Source: a virus. From it: a DNA stretch of 21,302 nucleotides. The translations under genes and the position numbers were made by a program. The notes under the pieces are model-generated. The model saw only the letters and a list, made by a program, of their open reading frames with translations. It was not told the origin of the DNA and did no database searches. Position 1 is the first letter of the stretch, and every line of letters starts with the position of its first letter. The DNA lies in IMG/VR virus record IMGVR_UViG_3300033141_002883, positions 1 to 21,302 of that record. One strand, given 5' to 3'. Below are positions 2,798-20,831 of this stretch, in pieces.

Positions 2798-3517
2798 ATG
2801 GAGGTGTCGAAAAATAGCGTAGTAAAATACACACACCTCGATGCATCGGACTTCCTTTCTGATGCCGATTTTCAGTCCTACAATGCCGAAGAGCGCGGCG
2901 TCTATTGCACCATAATTTTTTACCTGTACTGCAACAAGGGAAAGGCGGAACTCGATACCCTCCGGATGCTCACAAACTGTCGCAATTTTGAAAAAGTTTG
3001 GAGCAAGGTCGGAAAAAAATTCGTCAAACGCACACAGCGACTTCAGGGCAAAAATCGTTGCGTCATCTCACATAAACGCGTCATAAAAGAGTTAAAGAAA
3101 GCGACAGCGGCGATGCAAACATATCGCAACAAAGGAATTAAGGGCGCAACGGCACGATGGCACAAGCATAATTCCAGCTATGCTTCAAGCAATCCTACAG
3201 CTATGCCTGAAGCAGATGCAGAAAAGAAAAGAAAAGAAAAGAAAGATATAAAGAGAGAAGAAGAGATAGCATCTCAGTATATCTTCCTTCTCGGGAAGAG
3301 AAATTCCAACAAGACCGAGACTGTCATCGCCGCTTTCAAGGAGCTTATTGAAAAGGACGGAAAAGACCCCGCCGATGTGCGCAGGGCGATAGAGACCTAC
3401 TACAAGCTCGGCGGCGTTATTGACGGGGCGGATGACATCGGCCTGCCTCGAAGGGTATGGGATTGCGCGAAGAAGTTGCGCCGCGACGATTCGGTGGGGA
3501 GGAGGTTCGCAGGATGA
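2798..3517 (+). CDS. DUF1376-like replication protein / helicase loader candidate
   Basis: A 239-residue protein. Residues about 10-110 match the pattern of DUF1376-type phage replication proteins: THLDASDFLSDADFQSYNAEERGVYC with a following helix (YLYCNKGKAELDTLRML) and KVGKKF. A highly charged Lys/Glu linker (about 140-155) is encoded by a homopurine tract with a GAAAA repeat. The C-terminal domain (about 160-239) is helical (TVIAAFKELIEKDGKDPADVRRAIE). Position directly before the DnaB-like helicase suggests an initiator or helicase-loading role (inference). The ATG follows GAGAGGGGG; the stop overlaps the helicase start by four bases. Confidence 0.6.
   Translation: MEVSKNSVVKYTHLDASDFLSDADFQSYNAEERGVYCTIIFYLYCNKGKAELDTLRMLTNCRNFEKVWSKVGKKFVKRTQRLQGKNRCVISHKRVIKELKKATAAMQTYRNKGIKGATARWHKHNSSYASSNPTAMPEADAEKKRKEKKDIKREEEIASQYIFLLGKRNSNKTETVIAAFKELIEKDGKDPADVRRAIETYYKLGGVIDGADDIGLPRRVWDCAKKLRRDDSVGRRFAG
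3221..3245 (+). repeat. GAAAA pentanucleotide repeat inside a coding region
   Basis: Four GAAAA units and a fifth GAAAG follow each other, within a longer homopurine stretch to about 3268. The unit length is not a multiple of three, so gain or loss of one unit would shift the frame of the DUF1376-like gene at its linker. Confidence 0.8.
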
Positions 3518-7736: not shown

Positions 7737-8510
7737 ATGAAAGAAGACGATTATGTTCTGGTCTTGCGAAACTGCAGGACAGATATGACCAGCCGGGAGG
7801 GTTTCAAATATCCGCGCCGCGGGTGGGTAGAAACTAAAGATTGGAAGCCAACGTATAAATGTGGCAATGGCTTGCATGGGCTTCTATGGGGATGCGGAAC
7901 AACCTTGTATTTATATCCAGAGCCAGCCAAATGGCTCGTTATTAAGGTTAAGATGCAGGATTGTCTATTCGGAAAGGGTGATTTGGATGATAAGTGCAAA
8001 TTCAAGGGCGGCTATATAGTTTATTGCGGCGACAGAGGTGGAGCGATTCAATATCTTGATGAGCACGGGGCCGAAGATAAGCCGGTTATCTATGCCAACA
8101 GAGTCGCAGGAGATTACGGCACAGCAACCGCAGGAAATTACGGCACAGCGACCGCAGGAGATTTTGGCAAGGCAACCACAGGATACGAAGGCACGGCAAC
8201 TGCAGGAGATTTTGGCAAGGCAACCGCAGAAAATTGCAGCACAGCAACCGCAGGATGCTTTGGGAGAGCAACTGCAGGAGATTTCGGCACAGCAACTGCA
8301 GGAGATTTTGGCACAGCAACCACAGGATACAAAGGCAAGGCAACCGCAGGATGTAAAGGCCGAATTGTCATTGAATACTGGGACGCAGAAGCAGAGCGTT
8401 ATCGTTTGGCCGTGGGATACATCGGCGAGAACGGCCTGAAGCCGAATGTTAAATACAGGTTGGATGAAAAGCACGAGTTTATTGAGGCGGGGGAGAGCAA
8501 GGATGATTAA
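7737..8510 (+). CDS. Octapeptide-repeat protein (DUF7666-like N-terminus)
   Basis: A 257-residue protein in three parts. Residues 1-115 contain GFKYPRRGWVETKDW, KCGNGLHGLLW and WLVIKVKMQDC, resembling the phage domain (DUF7666-like) in which a G-x-H motif follows a conserved Cys. Residues 124-211 are eleven tandem octads of consensus A-G-[DN]-[FY]-G-[TK]-A-T. Such regular Gly/Ala octads would suit a solenoid or beta-roll. The C-terminal part (IVIEYWDAEAERYRLAVGYIGENGLKPN...) is a beta-rich cap also seen in relatives. Function unknown. RBS AGGAGGGG precedes the ATG. Frequent in phages with variable repeat number, so the length differs between relatives. Confidence 0.7.
   Translation: MKEDDYVLVLRNCRTDMTSREGFKYPRRGWVETKDWKPTYKCGNGLHGLLWGCGTTLYLYPEPAKWLVIKVKMQDCLFGKGDLDDKCKFKGGYIVYCGDRGGAIQYLDEHGAEDKPVIYANRVAGDYGTATAGNYGTATAGDFGKATTGYEGTATAGDFGKATAENCSTATAGCFGRATAGDFGTATAGDFGTATTGYKGKATAGCKGRIVIEYWDAEAERYRLAVGYIGENGLKPNVKYRLDEKHEFIEAGESKDD
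8106..8369 (+). repeat. Eleven 24-bp in-frame tandem repeats
   Basis: Eleven consecutive 24-base units encode octapeptides in one frame; ten fit the pattern GCAGGAGATTTYGGCAMRGC plus ACY, the eleventh decays into the C-terminal domain. Several units are almost identical (for example those starting at 8274 and 8298), while others such as that at 8226 (AENCSTAT) are diverged, a sign of repeated duplication and loss. The many open frames on other strands here are by-products of the repeat. Confidence 0.9.
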
Positions 8511-8543: not shown

Positions 8544-9614
8544 ATGACGGCCAAAAAAACAGTGCTAATTGGCATTTCCGGCAAGAAGCGAAGTGGAAAA
8601 AACACAAGCGCAACGGCCATTGTGCGACATGCCAAAAGACTTGGTCTTAGGGTAGGAGAATACAGCTTTGGCGATTACGTAAAAAAGGCAACTGAGCGGG
8701 CGTTCTCATTTTTGGGGCTGGATTTTTGGACGGAGGATGTGAGCAAAAAGGAAAAGATACGCCCGCTCTTGCAGGGCGTAGGGACTCACGCCGGGAGGCG
8801 GTTTAATAAAAATATCTGGGTCAATGTATTGGCCGACCGCATAGCATCCGACCGCCCTGACATTGCCGTTATTCCAGATGTGCGCTTCCCCAATGAGGTC
8901 GATTTTGTGCTTGGTGCCGATGGCTATATTATTAGATTACTGAGAAGCCCGCACCCGGAGGACGCCGACGAATCCGAGACTGCCCTCGATACTTGGGAGG
9001 CATCTTTGCGGTGGCCTGCTGCAAGCGAAAAAGATTTCGACCATACATTTGTCATAGACAACAGGAAGATGAGCATACCGGAACAACAGGCAGAAACAAT
9101 AAGAATCTTCGAGACGGTCTGTTGCCGAAGGAGCTTGATCCCGCCGTGGCGGGGCCGAGATATGGAGGTGGAAAAAATGACAAAAAGAAAAAAGGGCGGA
9201 GAGGTTAACAAGGAGCAATGTCGGCTCCTTGCAGATAGGATTGCCGAGCTTGAGAATCAGTATGCGGAGCCTGGGGATGGTTGTAAGTGCCAAGAATGCG
9301 GCAACATATATCGAGAAGATGTAATAGTTCCCGATGATTTATGGGATGAAATACGGCCCCAAAACAAAGGGCCGGGTGCGGGCTTACTCTGCGGCCAGTG
9401 TATTGCCAAAAAGATTAGCGCCGCATTTGCCGAGCTTCAGAAAGAGCTTGCCATTCTCAAGGCAAGCGAGGAGTGGTGTATCAAAAAACTCGATGCCCTG
9501 TCTGTGGATTTCCCCGCAGAGCGATATCTTGAAGCAACGGAAATAAGGGACGAACTCCGCACCCACGAGCAGGGGCGGAGGATTGTGGGGGAGGGAGCGA
9601 AGGAAGGTGAGTAA
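8544..9614 (+). CDS. Deoxynucleoside monophosphate kinase joined to a zinc-binding protein
   Basis: A single 356-codon frame. Residues 1-190 are a dNMP kinase: P-loop GKKRSGKNT (13-21), DYVKKATERAF, the LLQGVGTHAGR segment, and VIPDVRFPNE; it would phosphorylate dNMPs to supply phage DNA synthesis. After a natural end near residue 190, the chain passes through a GC-rich palindrome (SLIPPWRGRD) and enters a second unit with an own ATG at 9177 (codon 212) and GGAGG at the right distance. That unit (145 residues) has CKCQECG and LLCGQCIAKK as a zinc-binding pair and two helices (AELQKELAILKASEE). Either a fusion, or two products from one frame with internal initiation. Kinase call sure; second half unknown. 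Confidence 0.8.
   Translation: MTAKKTVLIGISGKKRSGKNTSATAIVRHAKRLGLRVGEYSFGDYVKKATERAFSFLGLDFWTEDVSKKEKIRPLLQGVGTHAGRRFNKNIWVNVLADRIASDRPDIAVIPDVRFPNEVDFVLGADGYIIRLLRSPHPEDADESETALDTWEASLRWPAASEKDFDHTFVIDNRKMSIPEQQAETIRIFETVCCRRSLIPPWRGRDMEVEKMTKRKKGGEVNKEQCRLLADRIAELENQYAEPGDGCKCQECGNIYREDVIVPDDLWDEIRPQNKGPGAGLLCGQCIAKKISAAFAELQKELAILKASEEWCIKKLDALSVDFPAERYLEATEIRDELRTHEQGRRIVGEGAKEGE
9140..9153. repeat. Short GC palindrome, core CCCGCC-GT-GGCGGG
   Basis: A perfect 6+6 inverted repeat with a two-base centre lies in frame between the kinase and the zinc-binding unit. Seventeen bases here (9140-9156) match the reverse complement of the palindrome at 10587-10604, so it belongs to a dispersed family; further members or relatives lie at 19485 and possibly 10869. 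Confidence 0.7.
9164..9179 (+). promoter_or_regulatory. Internal ribosome binding site and start within the fused frame
   Basis: GGAGG at 9164-9168 is followed eight bases later by ATG at 9177, in frame with the kinase ORF. The spacing is ideal, so the zinc-binding half can be made as a separate 145-residue protein. This arrangement suggests that the two genes were originally distinct and lost the stop codon between them. Confidence 0.5.
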
Positions 9615-9855
9615 TTTACTATGGTTTATTTGCGGAGTTTTTATTATTCCCCTCGTGGCGTTCCTGCTTAGCTTGTGGTCATTGTTCTACTGGTGGTGTA
9701 GGACTAAAAAGCGTATTTGGAGGGCCAGGAAGGAGTGGCATTATGAAAATCCATACTTCCGAGAGGCGTTCGAGATGGGTGTGAAATGGGCTGATGACGG
9801 AAAGCCAGCAGCAAAACCTGTTAATAGAATATTAAGATTTCCACCTTATAAGTAA
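9607..9855 (+). CDS. Small membrane protein
   Basis: An 82-residue protein with one strongly hydrophobic N-terminal segment (LLWFICGVFIIPLVAFLLSL, about residues 4-23, continuing WSLFYWW) followed by a basic stretch (RTKKRIWRARKEW) and a soluble tail (YFREAFEMGVKWADDGKP). The positive residues after the helix predict a cytoplasmic C-terminus. I chose GTG at 9607, overlapping the previous stop, with GGGAGCGAAGGAAG upstream; TTG at 9583 is an alternative. No family is recognised; the tail motif FEMGVKWAD recurs in small phage membrane proteins. Confidence 0.5.
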   Translation: MSNLLWFICGVFIIPLVAFLLSLWSLFYWWCRTKKRIWRARKEWHYENPYFREAFEMGVKWADDGKPAAKPVNRILRFPPYK

Positions 9856-9872
9856 GATTGCGGAGGAGAACA

Positions 9873-9983
9873 ATGGCACGGCGTAGCTCAAATAGACTCC
9901 AACTGCGAATGCAGGCAAGGTCGAAAGAGCGGTATCGGGAAAGCGGCCCGATTGCGCCGTGCCTTTTTATTGACACTCGTTGA
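9873..9983 (+). CDS. Very small basic ORF (36 codons)
   Basis: A 36-residue, Arg-rich peptide (MARRSSNRLQLRMQARSKER...) starting at ATG behind a strong GGAGGAG site. Its last codons run into the operator-like dyad at 9970. No family; the good ribosome binding site and fit in the gap are the only support. It might be a leader peptide or a small DNA/RNA-binding protein. Confidence 0.35.
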   Translation: MARRSSNRLQLRMQARSKERYRESGPIAPCLFIDTR

Positions 9984-9993
9984 GAAGTGTCAA
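9970..9993. promoter_or_regulatory. Operator-like dyad, first copy
   Basis: TTGACACT at 9970-9977 and AGTGTCAA at 9986-9993 form a perfect eight-base inverted repeat with an eight-base centre. It lies 24 bases before the ATG at 10017. A second copy at 11180-11203 shares 21 of 24 bases and partly also the sequence downstream. TTGACA also equals the bacterial -35 consensus, so the site could combine promoter and operator. Confidence 0.6.
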
Positions 9994-10016
9994 GGATTTG
10001 GCAAAGGAGAGTGAGA

Positions 10017-10616
10017 ATGAGGGAGCGTCCAATCATATTTTCAGCCCCGATGGTGCGGGCAATTCTTGACGGGCGAAAGACGCAAATGAGGCGAGTAATC
10101 AAGGGCTATCAAGGGTCGTGGCTGGGAATATCTGACCCGGCAATTGAGAAATGCCCTTATGGTGTCCCCGGCGACCGGCTCTGGGTGAGGCACGTCCATT
10201 GGAGGGGCGGCGGCCCCGCGAATGACCAAGTATGGGATGAGTTTACACGGACGAGCCGGTGGCAAGACGGCAGGGAAATCAAAGACCACGGCCTCGTGCT
10301 TGATGAGAATGGGAAGCACATCCTCCTGAAGAAAAAACCCCCAATCTTTATGCCCCGATGGGCCGCCCGGATTTTCCTTGAGCTTACAAGCGTGAGGATT
10401 GGAAAATTGTGGGATATTTCAGGGGAAGATGTAGTTGCCGAGGGATGTCCGAACTGTCTGGCTGCAAATCTCGGAATAACGGAACATTTTGAGCAATTTC
10501 AAATATTATGGGACTCCATTAATGCAAAGCGCGGCTATCCGTGGAAAGACAATCCGTGGGTATGGGTAATTGAGTTTCAGAAAGTGGCCCCGCCACGGCG
10601 GGGCGAAGACAGATAA
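10017..10616 (+). CDS. ASCH-like phage protein (often labelled morphogenetic protein)
   Basis: A 199-residue protein of a family found widely in phages: RPIIFSAPMVRAILDGRKTQ at the N-terminus, then CPYGVPGDRLWVRH, IFMPRWAARIFLELTSVRI, DISGEDVVAEG, FQILWDSIN and NPWVWVIEFQKV. The motif set fits an ASCH/PUA-like beta-barrel, which binds RNA or nucleotides in other settings; some databases call it morphogenetic without proof. Starting at 10017 behind AAAGGAGAG it gives the family's N-terminus; the frame opens further up at 9987. The C-terminus ends in APPRRGEDR, encoded by the palindrome at 10587, which looks like an added tail. Confidence 0.75.
   Translation: MRERPIIFSAPMVRAILDGRKTQMRRVIKGYQGSWLGISDPAIEKCPYGVPGDRLWVRHVHWRGGGPANDQVWDEFTRTSRWQDGREIKDHGLVLDENGKHILLKKKPPIFMPRWAARIFLELTSVRIGKLWDISGEDVVAEGCPNCLAANLGITEHFEQFQILWDSINAKRGYPWKDNPWVWVIEFQKVAPPRRGEDR
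10587..10604. repeat. Short GC palindrome, core GCCCCGCC-AC-GGCGGGGC
   Basis: Perfect 8+8 inverted repeat with a two-base centre, in frame at the very end of the ASCH-like gene, where it codes for PPRRGE. Its complement matches the element at 9140. A similar translated string (RPPRRGE) occurs in the next gene at about 10869-10889, where the DNA palindrome has decayed. Confidence 0.7.
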
Positions 10617-10627
10617 GGCGTGATGTC

Positions 10628-11044
10628 TTGAGGCCATACTACAAAGACGAGAGAATAGGCAAGTATATTGACAAGTATCTTGATTTTGTCGAGGGAAGAT
10701 TATGGGTTGACGGCTTCGGGAATATATGTCGAGAGCGAATATATGAACCTGCAAAATGGGGCGTCTGCTACGAATCTTATGGAGATGAATGCGGGCGCAT
10801 TGGTTATGACGACCCCAAAAAACTCAAGCCCTTCACGCCCCCTGTCGGGATGAAATTTCGAGTGATAAGACCCCCACGCCGCGGAGAAATTGTTTCGTAT
10901 GTTTCTGAGTATTTCAAAAGTTGCTATTCGTGGATATTCCGCTTTGCAAGCGGAGAGGAATATGTCTTGCCTTGCCGACACGTTGAACCTCTGCACTGGA
11001 GAGTTGAGGAAGTCGAGAGCGATATTGCAAAGCAGCAAATTTGA
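10628..11044 (+). CDS. Hypothetical protein, possible hybrid with a methyltransferase start
   Basis: A 138-residue frame from TTG at 10628. Its first residues (RPYYKDE) equal the opening of the methyltransferase at 12109 (KPYYEDE), also at DNA level, and right after its stop lies a methyltransferase C-terminal remnant. The middle (GKYIDKYLDFVEGRLWVDGFGN...) has no methyltransferase motif, and residues about 80-86 (RPPRRGE) recall the dispersed palindrome. It might be an independent gene, or foreign sequence that replaced the body of a methyltransferase. Ribosome binding site is poor (AAGG only). No function assigned. Confidence 0.4.
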   Translation: MRPYYKDERIGKYIDKYLDFVEGRLWVDGFGNICRERIYEPAKWGVCYESYGDECGRIGYDDPKKLKPFTPPVGMKFRVIRPPRRGEIVSYVSEYFKSCYSWIFRFASGEEYVLPCRHVEPLHWRVEEVESDIAKQQI

Positions 11045-11158
11045 GCCGGGCATTGTGCTTGACCCATTCATAGACCCTGCCGGTATATCGGGATTGACAT
11101 AAAGGCGGAATACCTTGAAATGGCGAAGAAGCGAATCAGGCAGAAGGTGATGTTTTGA
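11034..11158 (+). pseudogene. Decayed C-terminus of a DNA methyltransferase
   Basis: Two frames together rebuild a methyltransferase end. From 11034 the frame reads SKFEPGIVLDPF, and from 11081 another frame reads RYIGIDIKAEYLEMAKKR followed by IRQKVMF and TGA at 11156-11158. The intact paralogue at 12109 has LILDPFLGSGTTAVAA ... RYIGIEIEEKYCEIAANR ... LRQKVMF. Between DPF and RYIG the intact gene has 45 bases, this copy only 11, so the glycine-rich SAM-binding loop is lost and the frame is shifted. It cannot encode an active enzyme. Confidence 0.8.
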
Positions 11159-11174
11159 GGGCGGGTATGCGGGA

Positions 11175-11203
11175 TATAATTGACACTTGTCAAGAAGTGT
11201 CAA
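11175..11203 (+). promoter_or_regulatory. Operator-like dyad, second copy, overlapping a TATAAT box
   Basis: TATAAT at 11175-11180 is a perfect -10 box, though no good -35 lies at 16-18 bases. Overlapping its last base, TTGACACTT at 11180-11188 and AAGTGTCAA at 11195-11203 form a perfect nine-base inverted repeat; TTGACA-CT-TGTCAA (11180-11193) is a second, nested dyad. A repressor bound here would cover the start of transcription. It precedes the ATG at 11228 by 24 bases, the same distance as the first copy from its gene. Confidence 0.6.
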
Positions 11204-11227
11204 GATTTTGACAGGGAGAAACCAAAA

Positions 11228-11542
11228 ATGAAAAAGGGGTATTGGGTTTTTGATGAGAAAAACCGCGAATGGGTTAAAGTGGAGGGTAAAAAAGTAACCA
11301 TTCCCGGCTTTAAGGGATTTCACTTTTTTGCTCATAAATCAATCGAGCCTTGTGGCCGAATCGTCATATCCGAGGCAAGAACCGGGGCACAAGTAGGCAG
11401 CGGAGAAACGAAGGATGAGGCCATTGTTGATGCTTATCGGCGACTAACGCCAGGGGCAATTGAGGAGGTAAGGCAAGCCCTTCGGCGATGCATTGCCAGA
11501 AATGGGGTTTCGCCAAAGTATCAAAAGGATAAACGAGGATAA
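11228..11542 (+). CDS. Hypothetical protein
   Basis: A 104-residue protein (MKKGYWVFDEKNREWVKVEG...). The first half is beta-rich with aromatic residues (GFKGFHFFAHKS), the second contains GRIVISEARTGAQVGSGETK and DEAIVDAYRRL, a strand-turn-helix pattern seen in small phage proteins of unknown function. The ATG at 11228 has GGGAG upstream; an in-frame TTG at 11180 lies inside the dyad and is unlikely. It is the first gene after the operator-like element and so may be under its control. Confidence 0.6.
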   Translation: MKKGYWVFDEKNREWVKVEGKKVTIPGFKGFHFFAHKSIEPCGRIVISEARTGAQVGSGETKDEAIVDAYRRLTPGAIEEVRQALRRCIARNGVSPKYQKDKRG

Positions 11543-11559
11543 AAAATGGGGGTGTTTTT

Positions 11560-11781
11560 ATGGGGGGTCATAAGAAGAAGCGACGCTGTATGGTTTGCGG
11601 GGCGGAGTTCGTATCGCGCTTTCCGGGGCGTTGCGAAGAGTGCAAGCGCGCTGATTATATGGCAAATCACTGGGGGCGGTATTGCAAATACGAAATCAGC
11701 GGAGACGAATTGGAAAAGCGGCTCGCCATTGAATCAAGACATTGCGGCGAAGTGAAATCAATGATTTACGGGGTATTATGA
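11560..11781 (+). CDS. Small zinc-ribbon protein
   Basis: A 73-residue basic protein with RRCMVCGAEF and GRCEECKRAD (CxxC...CxxC, 14 residues between pairs), a zinc ribbon, followed by a helical part with further Cys/His (YCKYE, SRHCGE). The KKKRR run just before suggests nucleic acid binding. Ribosome binding site GGGGGTG lies seven bases ahead of ATG. The stop overlaps the next gene's ATG (ATGA). Function unknown; small zinc proteins cluster here ahead of the sigma-like gene. Confidence 0.6.
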   Translation: MGGHKKKRRCMVCGAEFVSRFPGRCEECKRADYMANHWGRYCKYEISGDELEKRLAIESRHCGEVKSMIYGVL

Positions 11782-11930
11782 AAACATGCAGGAATTGTGC
11801 GAAAAGGGATAGATGCGCAGAATTATGTGAGGATATGAAAAAGTTGCTTGGAGAGGACGAACCTCAGAGGGCACGGAATATCTACACGGGAAAGCTGCAC
11901 AAGGTAAAACAGTTGAGAGGAAGGGAATAG
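11778..11930 (+). CDS. Small cysteine-rich protein
   Basis: A 50-residue protein with MKTCRNCAKRDRCAELCEDM, four cysteines within 14 residues (C4, C7, C13, C17), then a charged helix and a basic tail (GKLHKVKQLRGRE). It resembles the small CxxCxxxxxC proteins that precede phage sigma-like HTH genes. The ATG at 11778 overlaps the previous stop; an earlier in-frame start at 11742 is less likely. Its TAG is followed at once by the GTG of the next gene, so both are probably co-translated. Confidence 0.6.
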   Translation: MKTCRNCAKRDRCAELCEDMKKLLGEDEPQRARNIYTGKLHKVKQLRGRE

Positions 11931-12116
11931 GTGGATTATTCAGAATGGAGGTATCTGGTAACGCTCACAGAGGAAGAAAGCGAGCTTTTATATCTCCTGA
12001 ACCATGGATTTACAAAGAACCGAATCGCCGACCTATGGGACGTAGATAAGTCGAAGATTTCAAGGATGTGGAAATCCATTCTAAAAAAGGTCAAAGAGGC
12101 CGAATGGGATGATTAA
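11931..12116 (+). CDS. Sigma-70 region 4-like HTH protein
   Basis: A 61-residue protein made almost wholly of a helix-turn-helix of sigma-region-4 type: TLTEEESELLYLLNHGFTKN followed by RIADLWDVDKSKISRMWKSI and LKKVKEAEW. It has no sigma region 2, so it cannot act as a full sigma factor. In phages, such proteins often control late genes, and its place just before the methyltransferase and the packaging genes fits that idea (inference). GTG start directly after the previous TAG, with AGAGGAAGGGA as binding site. Overlaps the methyltransferase by eight bases. Confidence 0.7.
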   Translation: MDYSEWRYLVTLTEEESELLYLLNHGFTKNRIADLWDVDKSKISRMWKSILKKVKEAEWDD

Positions 12117-12813
12117 GCCATATTACGAAGACGAATCCGGCGTCATCTATCACGGCGACTGCCTTGAAATATTGCCGGAGCTGCCGGATAAGAGCGTTGA
12201 TTTGGTGCTGACTGACCCGCCGTATGGAGTGGATGTTGCGAGTCTAAGCAAAGATGGAGTCGGTGGGGAACAAGCAAAAAAGAGATATGAGTCGGGATGT
12301 TATGATGATAGGCCCATTACATTAAAATCTATCATAAAGCGCATCTTGCCTTTAATGTTAGGGCTTTCTGATTGTGTTGCCGTTTGTGCGGGAATAAAAA
12401 CTCTTATGTTATACCCCCAACCGGATTGGATTTTAGCTTGGATTTACAAAAAGAAGCATTCTTTTTGTCCCTATGGGTTTAACAACTGGACGCCCATTTT
12501 GTGTTATGGAAAAGACCCCTTTCAACAAAAAAGAAAGGGCAATGCTCCGTTCGCCGTTAAGACGGATGTAATTTATGATAATTCAGTTGTAAGTAAAAAT
12601 GGCCATCCGACACCCAAACCGGTTTCATTTGTGAAGAAGTTAATTGAACGATTATCGACTGAAAGGGGAGAGTTAATCCTCGACCCTTTTCTTGGCTCTG
12701 GCACTACGGCGGTAGCCGCGAAGAAGATGGGCTGTCGCTACATCGGCATTGAAATTGAGGAGAAATACTGCGAGATAGCCGCAAATCGCTTGCGGCAGAA
12801 GGTTATGTTTTAA
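12109..12813 (+). CDS. DNA methyltransferase (N6-adenine or N4-cytosine, beta class)
   Basis: A 234-residue SAM-dependent enzyme. Motif IV TDPPYG (35-40) comes before motif I DPFLGSGTT (192-200), the order of the beta class; HPTPKPVSFVKKLI is motif X-like, and the GDCLEILPELP start is typical. DPPY is compatible with N6-adenine or N4-cytosine products; the target site cannot be read. No restriction partner is nearby, so it is an orphan enzyme that probably protects phage DNA or alters gene control. It is intact, in contrast to the remnant at 11034. The start overlaps the HTH gene. Confidence 0.9.
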   Translation: MIKPYYEDESGVIYHGDCLEILPELPDKSVDLVLTDPPYGVDVASLSKDGVGGEQAKKRYESGCYDDRPITLKSIIKRILPLMLGLSDCVAVCAGIKTLMLYPQPDWILAWIYKKKHSFCPYGFNNWTPILCYGKDPFQQKRKGNAPFAVKTDVIYDNSVVSKNGHPTPKPVSFVKKLIERLSTERGELILDPFLGSGTTAVAAKKMGCRYIGIEIEEKYCEIAANRLRQKVMF

Positions 12814-12944
12814 TCCCCATCCCATAAGCACTTACGTCATATTCACACCACAAGCTGCAACTTTTCGCCTATATATACGGAGGGGCGCGTAGCCCTTACT
12901 ACAAAGTGTGCTCTTGAAATGGTGAGCGGGTGGGTTGTGGGCTT
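12814..12944 (+). other. Intergenic gap before the zinc-ribbon gene
   Basis: The 131 bases contain no gene I can support. A TATATATA run at 12870-12876 is a possible -10 region without a matched -35. GGAGGGG at 12880 looks like a ribosome binding site but is followed by no start codon at usable distance. A nine-codon ATG frame at 12919 overlaps the next ATG. It is the longest gap between 261 and 20774 without a gene, so a promoter for the late region is plausible but unproven. Confidence 0.4.
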
Positions 12945-13304
12945 ATGAAATATAAATGGATTTCGATTCGGCTTTTTCCTGAAGAACCCTCACGCGAAGA
13001 AATCCGGGGCTTTAAGGCCGCGGGCTTTTATGCCAGAAGGCCGAAGATATACAAGCGGCCGGTGCATAGGGGGGGCGGGGTGCAGAGCAAATACAGAAAC
13101 AAGATGATTGCCGGGTATTCAGACAAGGGGGCGAGAATCTGCGCGGTCTGCGGGGCGAGATATTTTGTGCGCAAGAGGTTCTTTTCCCCGGAGGAGCGAA
13201 CGGCATTAAAGGGTGCTTGCTTTAATTGCCTAAAAAAGCGGGGCAAGGAGAAGCAGAATTACGTATATGATAAAGGCAAGGCCGCCGAGCAGCAGAAAAA
13301 ATAG
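12945..13304 (+). CDS. Basic zinc-ribbon protein
   Basis: A 119-residue protein, very basic. Residues 1-50 (KYKWISIRLFPEEPSREEIR...) form an alpha-beta unit with the clear phrase GFKAAGFYARRPKIYKRP; then RICAVCGARYFVRKRFFSPE and KGACFNCLKKRGKE give a CxxC...CxxC zinc ribbon separated by about 25 residues. The end is a Lys/Glu tail. A GTG at 12930 would add five residues; ATG at 12945 is chosen but its ribosome binding site is weak. Function unknown. Confidence 0.6.
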   Translation: MKYKWISIRLFPEEPSREEIRGFKAAGFYARRPKIYKRPVHRGGGVQSKYRNKMIAGYSDKGARICAVCGARYFVRKRFFSPEERTALKGACFNCLKKRGKEKQNYVYDKGKAAEQQKK

Positions 13305-13363
13305 GACGTCTTTTTCGTCGTAAATCATATTACAATTATAGCATATTAGCGGGAGGGACGCAA

Positions 13364-13843
13364 GTGAAAATTGAGGCGCTCCCGATTGGCTCTTTGAGAC
13401 CGGCACCATACAACCCCCGGATTTTCTCTGATGATAATATGCGGAAGCTTGAAAAGTCCCTGAGGGAATTCGGAATTGTGGAGCCGATAGTCATAAATCA
13501 GGACAATACCGTTATAGGCGGGCATCAGAGACTGAGGGCGCTGGAGAAGCTCGGCAAGGCGGAGGTGCCGTGTGTGAGGGTGAATCTCAACAAGACGAAG
13601 GAGAAGGCGCTTAATCTTGCCCTCAACAAGATAGTTGGAGAATTCGACTCGCCGAAGCTGAAGGATGTGCTGGAAGAAATCGACACGGGAGAGCTTGAGG
13701 ACATAGAGATTAGCGGATTCGATGAAGGTGAAATCGAAAACTTGATGACGCAGTTTTATCCCGCATCAGAGGAGGAACAGCCCCGCCCTGACGAGCGCAC
13801 GCCCATTAAATGCCCGAAATGTGGTCATGAGTTCACGCCTTGA
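13364..13843 (+). CDS. ParB/Srx-like N-terminal domain protein
   Basis: A 159-residue protein with the ParB N-terminal fold: LPIGSLRPAPYNPRIF, KSLREFGIVEPIVINQ, and VIGGHQRLRALEKLG (50-64), which is the nucleotide-binding box. The central ParB DNA-binding HTH is missing and the chain ends in a zinc knuckle half (KCPKCGHEF). Such short ParB-like proteins are standard in phages just ahead of terminase genes, often beside modification genes; CTPase or nuclease activity has been shown for distant relatives, not for this one. GTG start behind GGGAGG. A partition role is unlikely without ParA. Confidence 0.85.
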   Translation: MKIEALPIGSLRPAPYNPRIFSDDNMRKLEKSLREFGIVEPIVINQDNTVIGGHQRLRALEKLGKAEVPCVRVNLNKTKEKALNLALNKIVGEFDSPKLKDVLEEIDTGELEDIEISGFDEGEIENLMTQFYPASEEEQPRPDERTPIKCPKCGHEFTP

Positions 13844-13922
13844 ATTGAAATTAGACTGGCGCTCACATGAGGCAGCGAAATATGCCGTCGAGCATTGGCA
13901 TTATTCAAATCAGCCGCTCTAA
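13827..13922 (+). pseudogene. Truncated Mom-like DNA-modification gene (N-terminal fragment)
   Basis: From ATG at 13827, overlapping the ParB-like gene, a 31-codon frame reads MSSRLELKLDWRSHEAAKY followed by AVEHWHYS, then NQPL and stop. In related phages, the same opening (LxLDWxSHxAAKxAxExWHYS) begins a protein of about 190 residues of the Mom/GNAT-like group that usually follows this ParB-like gene; that comparison is from memory of the family. Here the body, with its acetyl-group binding motifs, is gone and the terminase gene follows after 23 bases. It could be a deletion remnant or, less likely, a small peptide. Confidence 0.6.
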
Positions 13923-13945
13923 GATAATTACCCGATAGGTGCCCC

Positions 13946-14392
13946 ATGGCGAGAATAAGCAAGATAGACAAAGAAAAGAGAGTGATTCAGGTTATCAAGG
14001 AAATCGCAAGGGGGACGCCCTATCGAGAGATAATCCTGATGTGCCGTGAATCGTGGGGCATTAAAGAGCGCATGGCAAAGGCATATATTCACGCCGCTTA
14101 TGAGGTGCTTGCAAGGGTCGAAGACAGGAAAAGCGTAAGGGTGAAGGCGGCTGAGGCAAAGGCCCGATACGATTCGATTTATCGCCGGGCCGTCATCACG
14201 GGGGATTTAACAGCGGCAAGGCAGGCACAGGATTCAATTTGCAAACTTGCGGGCCTCTTCGTTGAGCGGTTGGAGCATAAGCACGAACTCGGCGATTCAA
14301 TGCTGGAGTTGTTACATAAAGCCGGAAATGGTAAAGCTGACGAAAGAACAAGAGCGCGGCTTGGCGCGATTACGGGTGAGGATTCAAGTTGA
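13946..14392 (+). CDS. Terminase small subunit
   Basis: A 148-residue helical, basic protein directly ahead of the large terminase. The N-terminal part (EKRVIQVIKEIARGTPYREI) is an HTH-like DNA-recognition unit; the centre (RKSVRVKAAEAKARYDSIYR and GDLTAARQAQDSICKLAGLF) is the oligomerisation helix bundle common to small terminases. It recognises the packaging site and stimulates the large subunit. Its 3' end overlaps the large subunit gene by 65 bases, a common arrangement. Call rests on position plus helical pattern. Confidence 0.75.
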   Translation: MARISKIDKEKRVIQVIKEIARGTPYREIILMCRESWGIKERMAKAYIHAAYEVLARVEDRKSVRVKAAEAKARYDSIYRRAVITGDLTAARQAQDSICKLAGLFVERLEHKHELGDSMLELLHKAGNGKADERTRARLGAITGEDSS

Positions 14393-15695
14393 CCCGCTCT
14401 TTTTCGTAAAGGAGGTTCTCGGCGGTGAGCCGTGGCAGAAAGAGGCGGACATCTTATTATCTGTCCGGGATAACAAATACACGGCAGTCCGCTCAGGGCA
14501 CGGGGTTGGCAAGACCTACTCAGCGGCCCGCGCAGCCCTGTGGTTCCTTGTCGCATTCAAGGGTTCGATAGTAATTACCACTGCTCCCACATGGCGACAG
14601 GTGCGAATGCTGCTATGGGGAGAAATCAGGGGCGCGGTAAGAAATGCCAGGTGCCCGGAAATGTTTCGAGGTTCCGTTCTTTTAGACACACGATTAACGG
14701 TAGATGACGGCTGGTATGCCCTGGGACTCTCTACGGACGAGCCGGATAATTTTCAGGGCTTTCACGCGGAGAACCTTCTCGTAATCATTGACGAGGCGAG
14801 CGGGGTGGGCCGCTCGATATACGAGGCCTGCGAGTCCCTGATGACCTCGGCGAATTGCAAGATGCTCGCCATTGGGAACCCCCTTTCCCCATCCGGTTGG
14901 TTTTTTGACGCCTTCCAAAATCCGGGATGGCAGCACATACACATATCGAGCTACGACTGCCCTAACGTTACTCAAGGCGGAATGCCCTATCCGAAGCTCG
15001 TTATCCCGGAATGGATTAAAAGGCGAGAGCTTGACTGGGGGCGCGAAAGTCCGTTATTCCAATCGAGGGTGCTCGGCGAGTTTCCGCAGGAGGGCGAGGA
15101 CACGCTGATTCCGCTCTCGTGGCTTGAATGGGACGGCCCCGGAAGTGAAGGCGAGCCGGCGCTAGGCGTGGACGTTGCCCGCTTTGGAAGCGATGAGACG
15201 GTTATCCTGAAACGCTCCGGGATGGTCGTCAAAGAGGTCATTGCCGCCCGCGGCATAGCTACTACAGAGACAGCAGGCAGGGTCAAGGTTGCTGGGGAGG
15301 GCATTAAGCCGGAAAATATCAAGATAGACGTTATAGGCGTGGGGGGCGGAGTAGTTGACAATTTACATGAGCAAGGGCTAATGGTTAATGGTGTCAACTT
15401 TGCTGAGACCGCGCAGGATGCGGTCAAGTTCAAGAATGTGAGGGCGGAATGTTACTGGGCTGTGAGGGATGCGGTTAGGCCGGACGCTGAAAACCGCCTA
15501 TACATACCGGACAAATTCAGGAAGCTGAAGGCCCAACTGTCAGCCCTCAAATACAAAATTGATTCACGAGGACGAATTCAAATTGAGCCGAAAGAGGAAT
15601 TCAAAAAGCGGATGGGATATTCACCCGACCAGGCGGACGCGCTTGCCATCAGTCTTAAGCCGGGCGCTCCGATTCTGTCTGCTGTATGGATTTAG
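14328..15695 (+). CDS. Terminase large subunit (ATPase and nuclease)
   Basis: A 455-residue packaging motor. The ATPase domain has Walker A SGHGVGKT (56-63), TTAPTWRQV, and Walker B LLVIIDEASG (catalytic acids D155, E156). The C-terminal RNase H-like nuclease begins at GVDVARFGSDETVI (first metal-binding Asp) and has IDVIGVGGGVVD and SPDQADALAIS for the other acidic residues. It cuts concatemers and pumps DNA into the prohead. An in-frame start at 14247 would extend it deep into the small subunit; ATG at 14328 is preferred though its ribosome binding site is weak, so translation may depend on coupling. Confidence 0.93.
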   Translation: MVKLTKEQERGLARLRVRIQVDPLFFVKEVLGGEPWQKEADILLSVRDNKYTAVRSGHGVGKTYSAARAALWFLVAFKGSIVITTAPTWRQVRMLLWGEIRGAVRNARCPEMFRGSVLLDTRLTVDDGWYALGLSTDEPDNFQGFHAENLLVIIDEASGVGRSIYEACESLMTSANCKMLAIGNPLSPSGWFFDAFQNPGWQHIHISSYDCPNVTQGGMPYPKLVIPEWIKRRELDWGRESPLFQSRVLGEFPQEGEDTLIPLSWLEWDGPGSEGEPALGVDVARFGSDETVILKRSGMVVKEVIAARGIATTETAGRVKVAGEGIKPENIKIDVIGVGGGVVDNLHEQGLMVNGVNFAETAQDAVKFKNVRAECYWAVRDAVRPDAENRLYIPDKFRKLKAQLSALKYKIDSRGRIQIEPKEEFKKRMGYSPDQADALAISLKPGAPILSAVWI

Positions 15696-15698
15696 AAT

Positions 15699-17825
15699 AT
15701 GAATATTATCGAGAAATTGAAATTGGCAATGGGCATATTCAGGAAGGCCGGAAGCTCCGGCGGTGAAACTATATGGCCGATGATGGTATCTCCGTGGAAT
15801 GATAAGATGCCAGCGCGCTGGAAGGATAACCCGGCCGAGCAGGTAAAACATTACAAACAATGGGTTTTTGCCGCGGTCAATGCAATTGCAAGGGCGGTTG
15901 CCGGAGCGCGATTACGTCTTTACACAGAAGAGAAGGGCAAGCCGAAGGAAATAACAGAGCATCCCTTCCTTGACCTGATTTATTCGGTCAACCCGCTTTA
16001 TACGGGAACAGACCTCTGGCATGCAACGATTGTATTTCTGGGGCTTACGGGCAATGCTTACTGGTATATGCCGCACACCCCGCTTGGCATACCCGGCGAG
16101 ATATGGATTTTGCAGTCGCAGAAGGTTAAGGTTATTCCGTCAAGAAAAACCCTCATTGCTGCGTATCAATATGGAAGCAGCACAGATAAGGTCAATTTTG
16201 CGCCGGAAGAAATAACACACTTCAAATATCCTAATCCCGTAGACCCCCTTTATGGCAAGTCTCCATTGCAGGCGGCTGCGGAAGCACAGGACTCGTATGA
16301 GGAAATGCAGACGTCAAGGTGGCGCGGCTTTAAGCAGTCGGTTAGGCCGGATACGGTTGCAACCCCGAAGAACAATTTAACACAAGACCAGCTTGACCGA
16401 CTATCTGCGCAGGTTAATCAAAATTACGGTGGGAGTGAAAATGCGGGTAAGATGCTGATACTGCCATATCCCTTTGAAAGCATCAAGCCGTTTATGGTAG
16501 CGCCGCGCGAGATGGATTATCTGAGAAGTGCACGGTTAACCCGCGAAGAGGTGTTAGGGATATACGGAGTTCCGCCCTCCATCGCCGGCATAGTTGAGAA
16601 CGTTAATCGAGCGGTTGCCGAGGCGCAGGAGTATGTATTTTCAAAATATACCGTAGCCCCGCTCTTGACAATGCTGGCGGCTCGAATTACTCAGGACATC
16701 CTCAACAGGTTTTATGATGACCGGCTTTATTGTGAGTTTGACAATCCCGTCCCTGTGGATGAAGAGAGAATCGCAAAAATCAATTCTATTTATGTTGACG
16801 TGGTAAAAACAAGGGACGAAATCAGGCGAGAGCTTAACCTTGAGCCGAAGGGTGCAAATGAGCTTTACACGGATATGAACAAGATTCCCATTGGCTCATC
16901 AGGGGCCAAATCGGAGCGAGAACCCCGCGCCTATACTCCTTCCCTCATTCAGCGGGGTTCTTCTCGCTCTGCCGACGCTCTGTCTGACGGTGAAATCAGA
17001 CGGATGCTCGACGAGGATTATTGCAAGGCGTTTGACCCGAAAGCAAGGGAATTATTGAAGGCGTTGCAGGGGTTCTTTGAGGGGCAGAGAAAAAGAGTTA
17101 TCAAGAGGTTGAGGGCGGCCCTTTCGGGCAAGAGCTATATCAAAACGAGCCAGAGCGAACTTCGCCGGTTGCTTAAAGAGATTTTTCCGCGCAAGGAAGA
17201 AGCGGGGCTAATGAAAGAGGCGACCGACGCCTCCCTTTTGGCTTCCTATATTGCCTCGGCAGTGCGGGAAGCGGAGTTGCTCGACGTTCCCCTTGATATG
17301 GGACTTTATAATGAGCGAGCGGGTAAATGGCTTGAAAAAGTAAAGAGCGTGGATTACTGGGAATCCGACAAGGCCCCTAACGCAACCACGATAAAGCAGA
17401 TACACTCCCGGTTAGCGCAAGGGATGGAGGCGGGCGAAAGCGTAAGCGAACTTGCCGAAAGGATAGACGGCCTATACGAGCAAACCTACAAGGGCCGGGC
17501 GTTAACGATTGCCAAGACTGAGACGGCGGGCGCCTTCGGCGAAGGGGCTGAAGAACTGCGCAGGGAAGAGGGGGTAGAAAAAAAAGAGTGGATTACAACG
17601 ATGGACGACATGACGCGGGATGACCACGCTGCGGCTAATGGACAGGCGGTTAAGGTGGGAAGGCCTTTCAATATTGGCGGCGAGGATTTGATGTATCCCG
17701 GCGACCCCTCCGGCTCCGCTGAGCAAATATGTAACTGCCGATGCAGCTCTGCTGGCGTAGTAGAGAGAAAGCAGATTATTTCGTATCTTCAGCGAAGAGG
17801 ATACGTTCACGGAAATATCAGTTAA
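15699..17825 (+). CDS. Portal protein fused to Mu gpF-like head protein
   Basis: A 708-residue chain. Residues 1-395 are an HK97-type portal: QWVFAAVNAIARAVAGARLR, HPFLDLIYSVNP, GLTGNAYWYM, PLYGKSPLQAA, LTREEVLGIYGVPPSIAG and RDEIRRELNLEP. Portal forms the ring for DNA passage. Residues about 430-695 are a Mu gpF/SPP1 gp7-like minor head protein: AKTETAGAFGEGAEE, WITTMDDMTRDDHAA, GQAV, YPGDPSGSAEQICNCRC. Between them (about 403-424) lies a poorly conserved linker encoded by a strong hairpin. In most phages these are two genes; the fusion would place one gpF unit on every portal subunit. Starts three bases after the terminase stop with no strong ribosome binding site. Confidence 0.9.
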   Translation: MNIIEKLKLAMGIFRKAGSSGGETIWPMMVSPWNDKMPARWKDNPAEQVKHYKQWVFAAVNAIARAVAGARLRLYTEEKGKPKEITEHPFLDLIYSVNPLYTGTDLWHATIVFLGLTGNAYWYMPHTPLGIPGEIWILQSQKVKVIPSRKTLIAAYQYGSSTDKVNFAPEEITHFKYPNPVDPLYGKSPLQAAAEAQDSYEEMQTSRWRGFKQSVRPDTVATPKNNLTQDQLDRLSAQVNQNYGGSENAGKMLILPYPFESIKPFMVAPREMDYLRSARLTREEVLGIYGVPPSIAGIVENVNRAVAEAQEYVFSKYTVAPLLTMLAARITQDILNRFYDDRLYCEFDNPVPVDEERIAKINSIYVDVVKTRDEIRRELNLEPKGANELYTDMNKIPIGSSGAKSEREPRAYTPSLIQRGSSRSADALSDGEIRRMLDEDYCKAFDPKARELLKALQGFFEGQRKRVIKRLRAALSGKSYIKTSQSELRRLLKEIFPRKEEAGLMKEATDASLLASYIASAVREAELLDVPLDMGLYNERAGKWLEKVKSVDYWESDKAPNATTIKQIHSRLAQGMEAGESVSELAERIDGLYEQTYKGRALTIAKTETAGAFGEGAEELRREEGVEKKEWITTMDDMTRDDHAAANGQAVKVGRPFNIGGEDLMYPGDPSGSAEQICNCRCSSAGVVERKQIISYLQRRGYVHGNIS
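16914..16969 (+). repeat. Large hairpin in the portal/gpF linker
   Basis: GAGCGAGAACCCCGC at 16914-16928 is complementary to GCGGGGTT (16952-16959) plus CTCGCTC (16963-16969), leaving a three-base bulge; the loop is 23 bases. The hairpin sits in frame exactly at the join between two domains that are usually separate genes, and codes for EREPRAYTPSLIQRGSSRS. It looks like a palindromic insertion element that kept the frame open. Confidence 0.7.
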
Positions 17826-17845
17826 TAGAGCGGAGATTATTAGTG

Positions 17846-19615
17846 ATGAATAAGGAAATTAGCAGGGAAGAGTTTGAGCGGTGGCTCGCAAACCAGAAGG
17901 GATTTTCCACCGAAGGCGGAAGGTTCTTCGTTGAATGCGATGCCGACACAAAAGAAATCGACCCCGAAAAGCGGACGATGGTGGTAACGATTTCCACCAA
18001 AACCAAAGACCGCGCTGGCGATATTATGGAGCCGGGCGGAATGAAATTCGAGAATTACAAGAAAAACCCGGTAGTCCTCTGGGCACACGATTATAAGGGA
18101 CGCCCCATAGCAAAAACGCTCTGGATTAAGGTGCAGGGCGACAAGGTAATCGCCAAGCCGCGGTTTGCAAATACCGACCTTGCAAACGAGGTCTTCGAAC
18201 TTTACAAGGGCGGCTTTCTCAATGCGTGGAGCGTGGGATTTATCCCTGAGGACTTTGAGCCGAACAAGGAAAAGCAGGGTGATAAAATCGACGGTTATAA
18301 GGTGAGGACGTGGGAGCTTCTTGAGTATTCTGCGGTGCCCGTGCCCGCAAATCCTGAGGCACTGTCCAATGCCTACCAGAAAGGTGAAGTTAAGCTCTCT
18401 CCTGTTACCGTTAAGGCACTGGGCCTTGAGACAAAGGCGGCAACGTGGAAGTATTGCGTGTGTAAGGAATGCGGATACTATGAAGAGCACAAGGCGGGTA
18501 AGCCCTGTCAGGAAATCAAATGTCCCGAATGCGGCACTCCGCTGATGGGCAGCAATGAGAAGCCGAAGACAAAGGGTGTGCTTCCCTACAAAGACCTCGG
18601 CAAAGAGGACGAAGGCGCTGCGTGGGACGGGCCAAAAGAGGTTGCAACCGCCAGCGTGGATGACCTGAAGCTGATGTGTGCGTGGGTTGACCCGGAACAC
18701 GCCGATGTTAAGCAGGGCTATAAACTGCCTCATCACAGGGCAAGTTCGCACAAGGCCGTCTGGCGCGGCGTTGCGGCGGCGATGGCGGCCCTGCTCGGTG
18801 CAAGGGGCGGGGCGGCAATCCCCGATGCTGATAAAAAAGGCGTCTATAATCACCTTGCGAAGCATTACAAGGATTTTGATAAAGAGGCGCCGGAGTTCAA
18901 GGAATACTCCGAAGAGGAGATTGCCGAATTGGAAAAGCAGCTTGACGAGCTCCTTAAGGACAAGCCGGAGAATGCCGTAACCAAGCCCGAAGAGACAGAG
19001 ACGCACATTCACATTCCGGTAAGGGATGCGGACGGGTTTGTCAAGGACTCATTTCGCACTATTGACATCTCAAAGAAACAGGGCATTCAGGCCGTTATCG
19101 GCAAACTCAAATCCGACCCGGATGGGCCGACCAAAATCCAGAAATACATCTTCGATAAATCAAAGGGCTGGACGATGGAGAAGGCCAAGAAGTGGGTCGA
19201 GGAGCACAGGAAGGGTATCGAGTATTTACTCGGTCTTACGGACGAGCTTGAAGCCCCGGAGGCAAGGGAAATCGTCAGCGAGGCCGTTACGGACGAGATA
19301 AAACGGCTGAGCGGTGAGATTGCAGACCTCAAAGAAGGGCGGGTGCTCTCCAGGAAGAACAGGGAGCTTATACGTCAGTGCATTGAGAAGATGACAGAAG
19401 GCGTCGCCGCCCTGAAGAAACTCCACGACGCTGCGGAACCGGCAAGGGATGACGGCAAGGGCGCGGAGTCGCCAAAGCCGGAATCCCGCCAAGGCGGGGA
19501 AAACTTCTGGGAAAAGCTCTTGCAGGAACCCGACAAGTTCAAGTCAATTCTCTCCTCGGCAATGAGGAGCGCGGTAGATACGCACTTCAAGAAAATCACC
19601 GGAAAAGTAAGTTAG
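17846..19615 (+). CDS. HK97-type prohead protease with zinc ribbon and scaffold-like tail
   Basis: A 589-residue protein, much longer than a simple prohead protease (about 200). Residues 40-175 are the serine protease: RAGDIMEPGG, WAHD (catalytic H81), NAWSVGF (S129), WELLEYSAVPVPANPEAL. Residues 204-230 form a zinc ribbon (CVCKECG, CQEIKCPECG). Residues 246-352 hold the LPYKDLGKEDEGAAW to YNHLAKHYKDF domain seen in capsid-maturation proteins. Residues 384-455 (THIHIPV, KIQKYIFDKSKGWTMEKAKK) and a helical end (EIVSEAVTDEIKRLSGEI) resemble a scaffold. It would direct head assembly and then cut itself and the capsid protein. ATG at 17846 follows GGAG; the frame is open from 17741. Confidence 0.85.
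   Translation: MNKEISREEFERWLANQKGFSTEGGRFFVECDADTKEIDPEKRTMVVTISTKTKDRAGDIMEPGGMKFENYKKNPVVLWAHDYKGRPIAKTLWIKVQGDKVIAKPRFANTDLANEVFELYKGGFLNAWSVGFIPEDFEPNKEKQGDKIDGYKVRTWELLEYSAVPVPANPEALSNAYQKGEVKLSPVTVKALGLETKAATWKYCVCKECGYYEEHKAGKPCQEIKCPECGTPLMGSNEKPKTKGVLPYKDLGKEDEGAAWDGPKEVATASVDDLKLMCAWVDPEHADVKQGYKLPHHRASSHKAVWRGVAAAMAALLGARGGAAIPDADKKGVYNHLAKHYKDFDKEAPEFKEYSEEEIAELEKQLDELLKDKPENAVTKPEETETHIHIPVRDADGFVKDSFRTIDISKKQGIQAVIGKLKSDPDGPTKIQKYIFDKSKGWTMEKAKKWVEEHRKGIEYLLGLTDELEAPEAREIVSEAVTDEIKRLSGEIADLKEGRVLSRKNRELIRQCIEKMTEGVAALKKLHDAAEPARDDGKGAESPKPESRQGGENFWEKLLQEPDKFKSILSSAMRSAVDTHFKKITGKVS
19485..19498. repeat. Short GC palindrome, core CCCGCC-AA-GGCGGG
   Basis: A perfect 6+6 inverted repeat with a two-base centre in frame near the 3' end of the protease gene, encoding the charged linker PESRQGGEN. 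It shares the arms of the elements at 9140 and 10587 and differs in the central bases. Confidence 0.65.
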
Positions 19616-20774: not shown

Positions 20775-20783
20775 TAGCTAAGC

Positions 20784-20817
20784 GGGGTGGCCCTGCTTCG
20801 GCGGGGCCGCCCCTTTT
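20784..20817 (+). terminator. Intrinsic terminator after the capsid gene
   Basis: Ten bases after the capsid stop, GGGGTGGCCCT (20784-20794) pairs with GGGGCCGCCCC (20803-20813) with a short TTCG-containing loop and is followed by TTTT. This is a rho-independent terminator in the sense of transcription. The stem contains the CGGCGGGG string also found in the embedded palindromes, so it might be a relative of them. The ribosome binding site of the next gene starts within three bases, so read-through must allow some downstream expression or the next gene has its own promoter. Confidence 0.7.
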
Positions 20818-20831
20818 GCAAAGGAGTTAAG

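Follow-up and report, generated by a model that had tools for sequence, protein, structure and literature searches.

A GC palindrome dispersed in frame within three phage genes: candidate repeats of the REP/RPE kind from a cellular-type pool

Bacterial chromosomes are known to carry intragenic palindromic repeats, which add tails and linkers to the encoded proteins. The question raised by the present locus is whether repeats of the same kind also reside in the genes of a phage. If they do, phage genes accept such repeats too, phages may ferry them, and a phage would be an unusual carrier for REP- or RPE-like palindromes. The DNA analyzed (hereafter, the window) is a 21.3-kb viral record for which no named close relatives were found. 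A sequence-only reading of this record had described three palindromes with the core CCCGCC-NN-GGCGGG, all inside coding frames, and had likened them to the RPEs that insert into protein-coding genes of Rickettsia.

All three palindromes are present and exact. The 14-base core occurs at 9140-9153 (site 1), at 10589-10602 (in site 2), and at 19485-19498 (site 3), in each case in an open reading frame; no strand is assigned to the sites, and the genes that hold them are on the plus strand. When at most two mismatches were allowed, six core matches were counted in the window. In dinucleotide shuffles, such near-matches had a mean of 1.31 and a maximum of 4, and no shuffle had six. Because GC-rich Pro, Arg, and Gly codons could make the core accidentally, a protein-preserving control was also run, in which synonymous codons were shuffled 4000 times with every protein kept. 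Exact cores averaged 0.047 in these shuffles; two copies were found in 4 of the 4000, and three copies in none. The core is above chance against both backgrounds. Accidental formation of the core from such codons could draw on the abundance of GGCGGG (19 copies in the window, compared to about 6 expected) and on site 1, the core of which was obtained by codon choice alone in 106 of the 4000 shuffles. Against this reading stand the lack of any three-copy shuffle and the rarity of repeated dispersed palindromes in other viral sequences: 4 of 104 (each at least 7 kb, 1.23 Mb in all, and the window included) have at least three dispersed, identical 6-bp-arm palindromes. Chance and composition are thus already disfavored as the explanation, and are considered quite improbable. 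Among the eight palindromes with 6-bp arms and a 2-bp loop in the window, three have the arm CCCGCC, which is the sole arm listed more than once.

Sites 1 and 2 are read in one frame, and site 3 is read in another; it is therefore the DNA or RNA that is repeated, not a peptide. In neither of these frames does the palindrome introduce a stop codon. The further claim that sites 1 and 2 have 17 bases in common, in opposite orientation, was borne out (9140-9156 compared to 10586-10602), and most of this match is the palindrome itself.

Site 1 (CCCGCC-GT-GGCGGG, coding PPWRG) is located in an open reading frame at 8544-9614 that encodes a deoxynucleoside monophosphate kinase (aa 1 to ~196; DNMK PF21448 and phrog_139, aa 2-183) and, in frame with it, a second protein. 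The kinase profile stops at aa 183, and two homologous kinases of ~204 residues end at about site 1. The palindrome is at the C-terminal end of the kinase part, upstream of the Shine-Dalgarno sequence (SD) and ATG of the next in-frame segment; the frame remains open across this junction, through the palindrome, and into the second segment. Judged from its sequence, that segment probably starts at the ATG at 9177, which is preceded by an SD (GGAGG, 9164-9168). Searches with the segment after site 1 found no homologues.

Site 2 (10587-10604) has 8-bp arms around the exact core (GCCCCGCC-AC-GGCGGGGC) and codes APPRRGE. Through it, a phrog_874 protein with no assigned function (9987-10616; phrog_874 E 3e-53) ends in the tail APPRRGEDR, and the stop codon (10614-10616) follows the palindrome closely. 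In an alignment of 11 phrog_874 homologues, the proteins end at most ~10 residues past a conserved NPWVWVI motif, and their tails are unrelated. A decayed copy of the element had been proposed nearby at 10869-10889 on the plus strand, with the residues RPPRRGE. This stretch is identical to site 2 at 14 of 18 bases; in a codon comparison, all differences over PPRRGE are synonymous, and a match of this type to site 2 was encountered in 1 of 15 shuffles, i.e. it is above the usual shuffle level. The stretch is not palindromic, and its predicted fold is weak (-4.2 kcal/mol). It was accordingly judged not to be an element, and its likeness to site 2 is not evidence of one. No homologues of the gene containing this stretch were detected.

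Site 3 (CCCGCC-AA-GGCGGG, coding ESRQGGEN in its different frame) is found in the gene for a prohead protease with a long C-terminal extension (17741-19615; Peptidase_S78, PF04586, phrog_80). It occupies a variable linker that precedes the conserved C-terminal segment of the protease, and in the homologues this linker is unrelated in sequence and varies in length. Among all GTDB genomes, a 19-base version of site 3 had five exact matches; these are scattered and are estimated to be about as many as chance would give. The genomes that hold them are not rich in the core, with the exception of a 5.8-Mb Fibrobacteres genome having a small excess (13 cores compared to 7 for a reversed control).

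The positions and folds of the sites raise the possibility that selection has favored them as RNA hairpins, each of independent origin, at or close to the 3' ends of genes; they could serve as mRNA stabilizers, as translational couplers, or as weak signals for pausing or attenuation. Two of the three are at gene ends, and the predicted hairpins have folding energies between -15.7 and -17.1 kcal/mol, their GC stems being 5-7 bp long and closed by 4-nt loops; REPs, too, are mainly found downstream of coding regions (PMC3733652). However, site 3 is inside its gene, ~120 nt upstream of the stop codon, none of the sites is followed by a T-run, the hairpins are absent in related viruses, and independent origins leave the identical core unexplained. 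This explanation is regarded as unlikely. A terminator function for sites 1-3 was considered separately and rejected: the sites resemble intrinsic terminators in having a GC-rich hairpin with a C-rich 5' arm, but they lack the T-run, and no terminator-like match was obtained at any of them. A T-run (TTTT) follows only a separate, terminator-like hairpin at 20782-20818 on the plus strand, 3' of the major capsid gene, which has a UUCG loop on a 13-bp stem and folds at -34.1 kcal/mol. Its stem, at 20784, had been put forward as a relative of the core. A core match there requires two mismatches, and this hairpin was placed outside of the repeat set.

No core copy is present in 15 related viral records. 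Megablast and searches with the protease, phrog_874, kinase, capsid, and terminase proteins yielded distant phage relatives only, and no empty site was found among them; the distant homologues do not have the residues concerned. In public viral contigs, the core mostly occurs once per contig. Flank-extended versions of the core had 80 and 18 matches in viral contigs, nearly all of them single, and no phage family sharing an extended element was recovered. One viral contig (G043) has four core copies (L259 3300-3400, 11290-11380, and 14784); longer palindromes enclose the copy at 11334 and the pair at 3341/3373.

The core might instead be a binding site, either an operator or parS-like, for a DNA-binding protein encoded by the phage. 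Its perfect dyad, its operator-like size, and its three copies in one contig are in keeping with this, as is a protein with a ParB_N domain encoded at 13364-13843. Such domains are common in unrelated phage proteins. The sites are within coding regions, not at promoters, and related viruses that encode homologues of the ParB_N protein have no core copies; on these grounds, the core would be a binding site of this sort with very low probability. The window has other repeats. A 35-nt repeat, 83% identical between its copies at 9969-10003 and 11179-11213, lies near two gene starts, contains an inverted TTGACACT...AGTGTCAA motif, and is a possible candidate for a regulator binding site. A 24-nt tandem repeat of ~14 units (8057-8392) is found in a phrog_18079 gene, where it codes octapeptides of the GxxGxATAG type. 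In a Patescibacteria genome (G179), a prophage-like region (L255 7988-10998) encodes a ParB-domain/methylase protein and a terminase that are related to those of the window.

Among cellular genomes, those of Patescibacteria are strongly enriched in the core. In 287 genomes of this phylum, 173 core copies were counted in 72 genomes, compared to 7 copies of the reversed pattern and 26 of the permuted arm CCGCCC. The copies are clustered, with a few genomes holding 8 to 18 (18, 15, 12, and 8). The corresponding ratios of core to reversed control were far lower elsewhere: 147:131 in the Clostridiales phylum, 61:32 in Fibrobacterota, and 259:93 in Pseudomonadota; all phylum totals of the core and its controls were summed by hand from tables. 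With the sampling covering these four phyla, the palindrome class may also extend beyond Patescibacteria. Forty-six copies were read in four Patescibacteria genomes. They are mostly intergenic and without T-runs, and many are nested in longer palindromes with genome-specific flanks.

Some of the Patescibacteria copies are in coding frames. In one genome (G238), the core is read in frame within a gene for a PBP2-type penicillin-binding protein (L225 2030-2100); at this position, 13 residues are absent from a relative (G743), and a second relative (G742) has a different insert (L266, L267). As a comparison of sequences, this supports RPE-like in-frame insertion of this palindrome class in Patescibacteria. 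Elsewhere in the phylum, the C-terminal tail of a methyltransferase, APPRRD (G303), and IPPWRE, near the end of a frame (G279), resemble the phage tails in their APPRR and IPPWR portions. No published description of a core-specific class of palindromes in Patescibacteria was found in a literature search, and such a class, in frame even in a PBP2 gene, may merit a study of its own. Y1 transposase genes were not significantly linked to core copy number in Patescibacteria (9/16 compared to 10/26, P 0.34).

The phage copies are bare cores without a longer nested palindrome. Their flanks match Patescibacteria flanks at 13-15 of 30 positions at best, compared to an average of 13.5 at random positions. 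The core density in the phage, three copies in 21 kb, exceeds that of the most core-rich genome encountered (Poisson P ~0.008). The only hint of the host lineage is a terminase in a Patescibacteria genome that is 42-44% identical to that of the phage.

The explanation favored here, with a probability of roughly 0.5, is that the three cores are REP/RPE-type repeats, short, palindromic, and dispersed, that were drawn from a cellular (host-type) pool and kept where the proteins tolerate the added residues. In its favor are the excess of the core, its use of two frames, the variable tails and linker that hold it, its absence in the 15 related viral records, and its enrichment in Patescibacteria. 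Counting against it are the dissimilar flanks, the lack of a longer nested palindrome, the high density in the phage, the failure to find an empty site among the relatives recovered, and the lack of a significant link to Y1 transposases. Repeats of cellular origin would have landed in the phage, arriving by insertion; the phage's host may have been the source of the copies, and a host transposase or recombination may have transferred them. Copies would persist only where extra residues are tolerated, as at two gene 3' ends and in one variable linker. Since the palindrome does not stop translation in either of its frames, a copy close to a C-terminus only adds or swaps a tail or reads on into the next gene, as at site 1. 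A bolder proposal, which is viewed as doubtful, is that phages act as carriers of host palindromic repeats. By inserting into phage genes, the repeats would give rise to novel C-termini and fused genes, with site 1 as an example, and they would pass from one host to another; phage genomes would thus both record and spread RPE-like elements.

The phage units share with the RPEs of Rickettsia the occurrence of a palindromic repeat, in frame, within unrelated protein-coding genes. RPEs are ~150 bp long and encode a conserved peptide (PMC10969869), and those of R. conorii end in a CGTC tag (PMC3733652). By contrast, the sequence shared among the phage units is 14-17 bp (the units themselves are 14-18 bp), not ~100-150 bp, and their flanks differ; they are untagged; and their peptides, read in two frames, are different (PPWRG and PPRRG compared to SRQGG). 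Because of their size, unshared flanks, lack of a tag, and different peptides, a place for the phage units in the Rickettsia RPE family is not supported. The RPE-type insertion suggested by the sequence-only reading is thus supported in part: a repeat at the DNA level in two frames, sites where homologues vary or end, absence in related viruses, and a core found in dispersed Patescibacteria palindromes, one of them in frame in a PBP2 gene and missing from a relative, all favor it, and membership in the Rickettsia family is not supported.

GTAG/CGTC REPs are a second point of comparison. Like the phage units, they have a short GC stem, and some are intragenic or at the ends of open reading frames, both of which locations are already known for REPs in bacteria (PMC3733652). 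The stem and loop lengths in the phage are within the GTAG range (stem 5-13 bp, loop 2-20; PMC3733652). REPs have many copies per genome; in the phage, three copies were counted in a 21-kb fragment. Neither GTAG nor CGTC adjoins any of its three sites. CGTCATT and ATTCCCGC are absent from the window; no Y1_Tnp domain was found among 20 window proteins searched against Pfam, nor a RAYT gene among the window reading frames searched. The Patescibacteria palindromes have the same CCCGCC-NN-GGCGGG core as the phage, and some of them are likewise in frame or C-terminal; they are often part of longer nested palindromes with family-specific flanks, whereas outer stems and flanks are not shared by the phage copies. 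In sum, the phage palindromes act similarly to RPEs and REPs, in that they are open in frame and decorate proteins at variable places.
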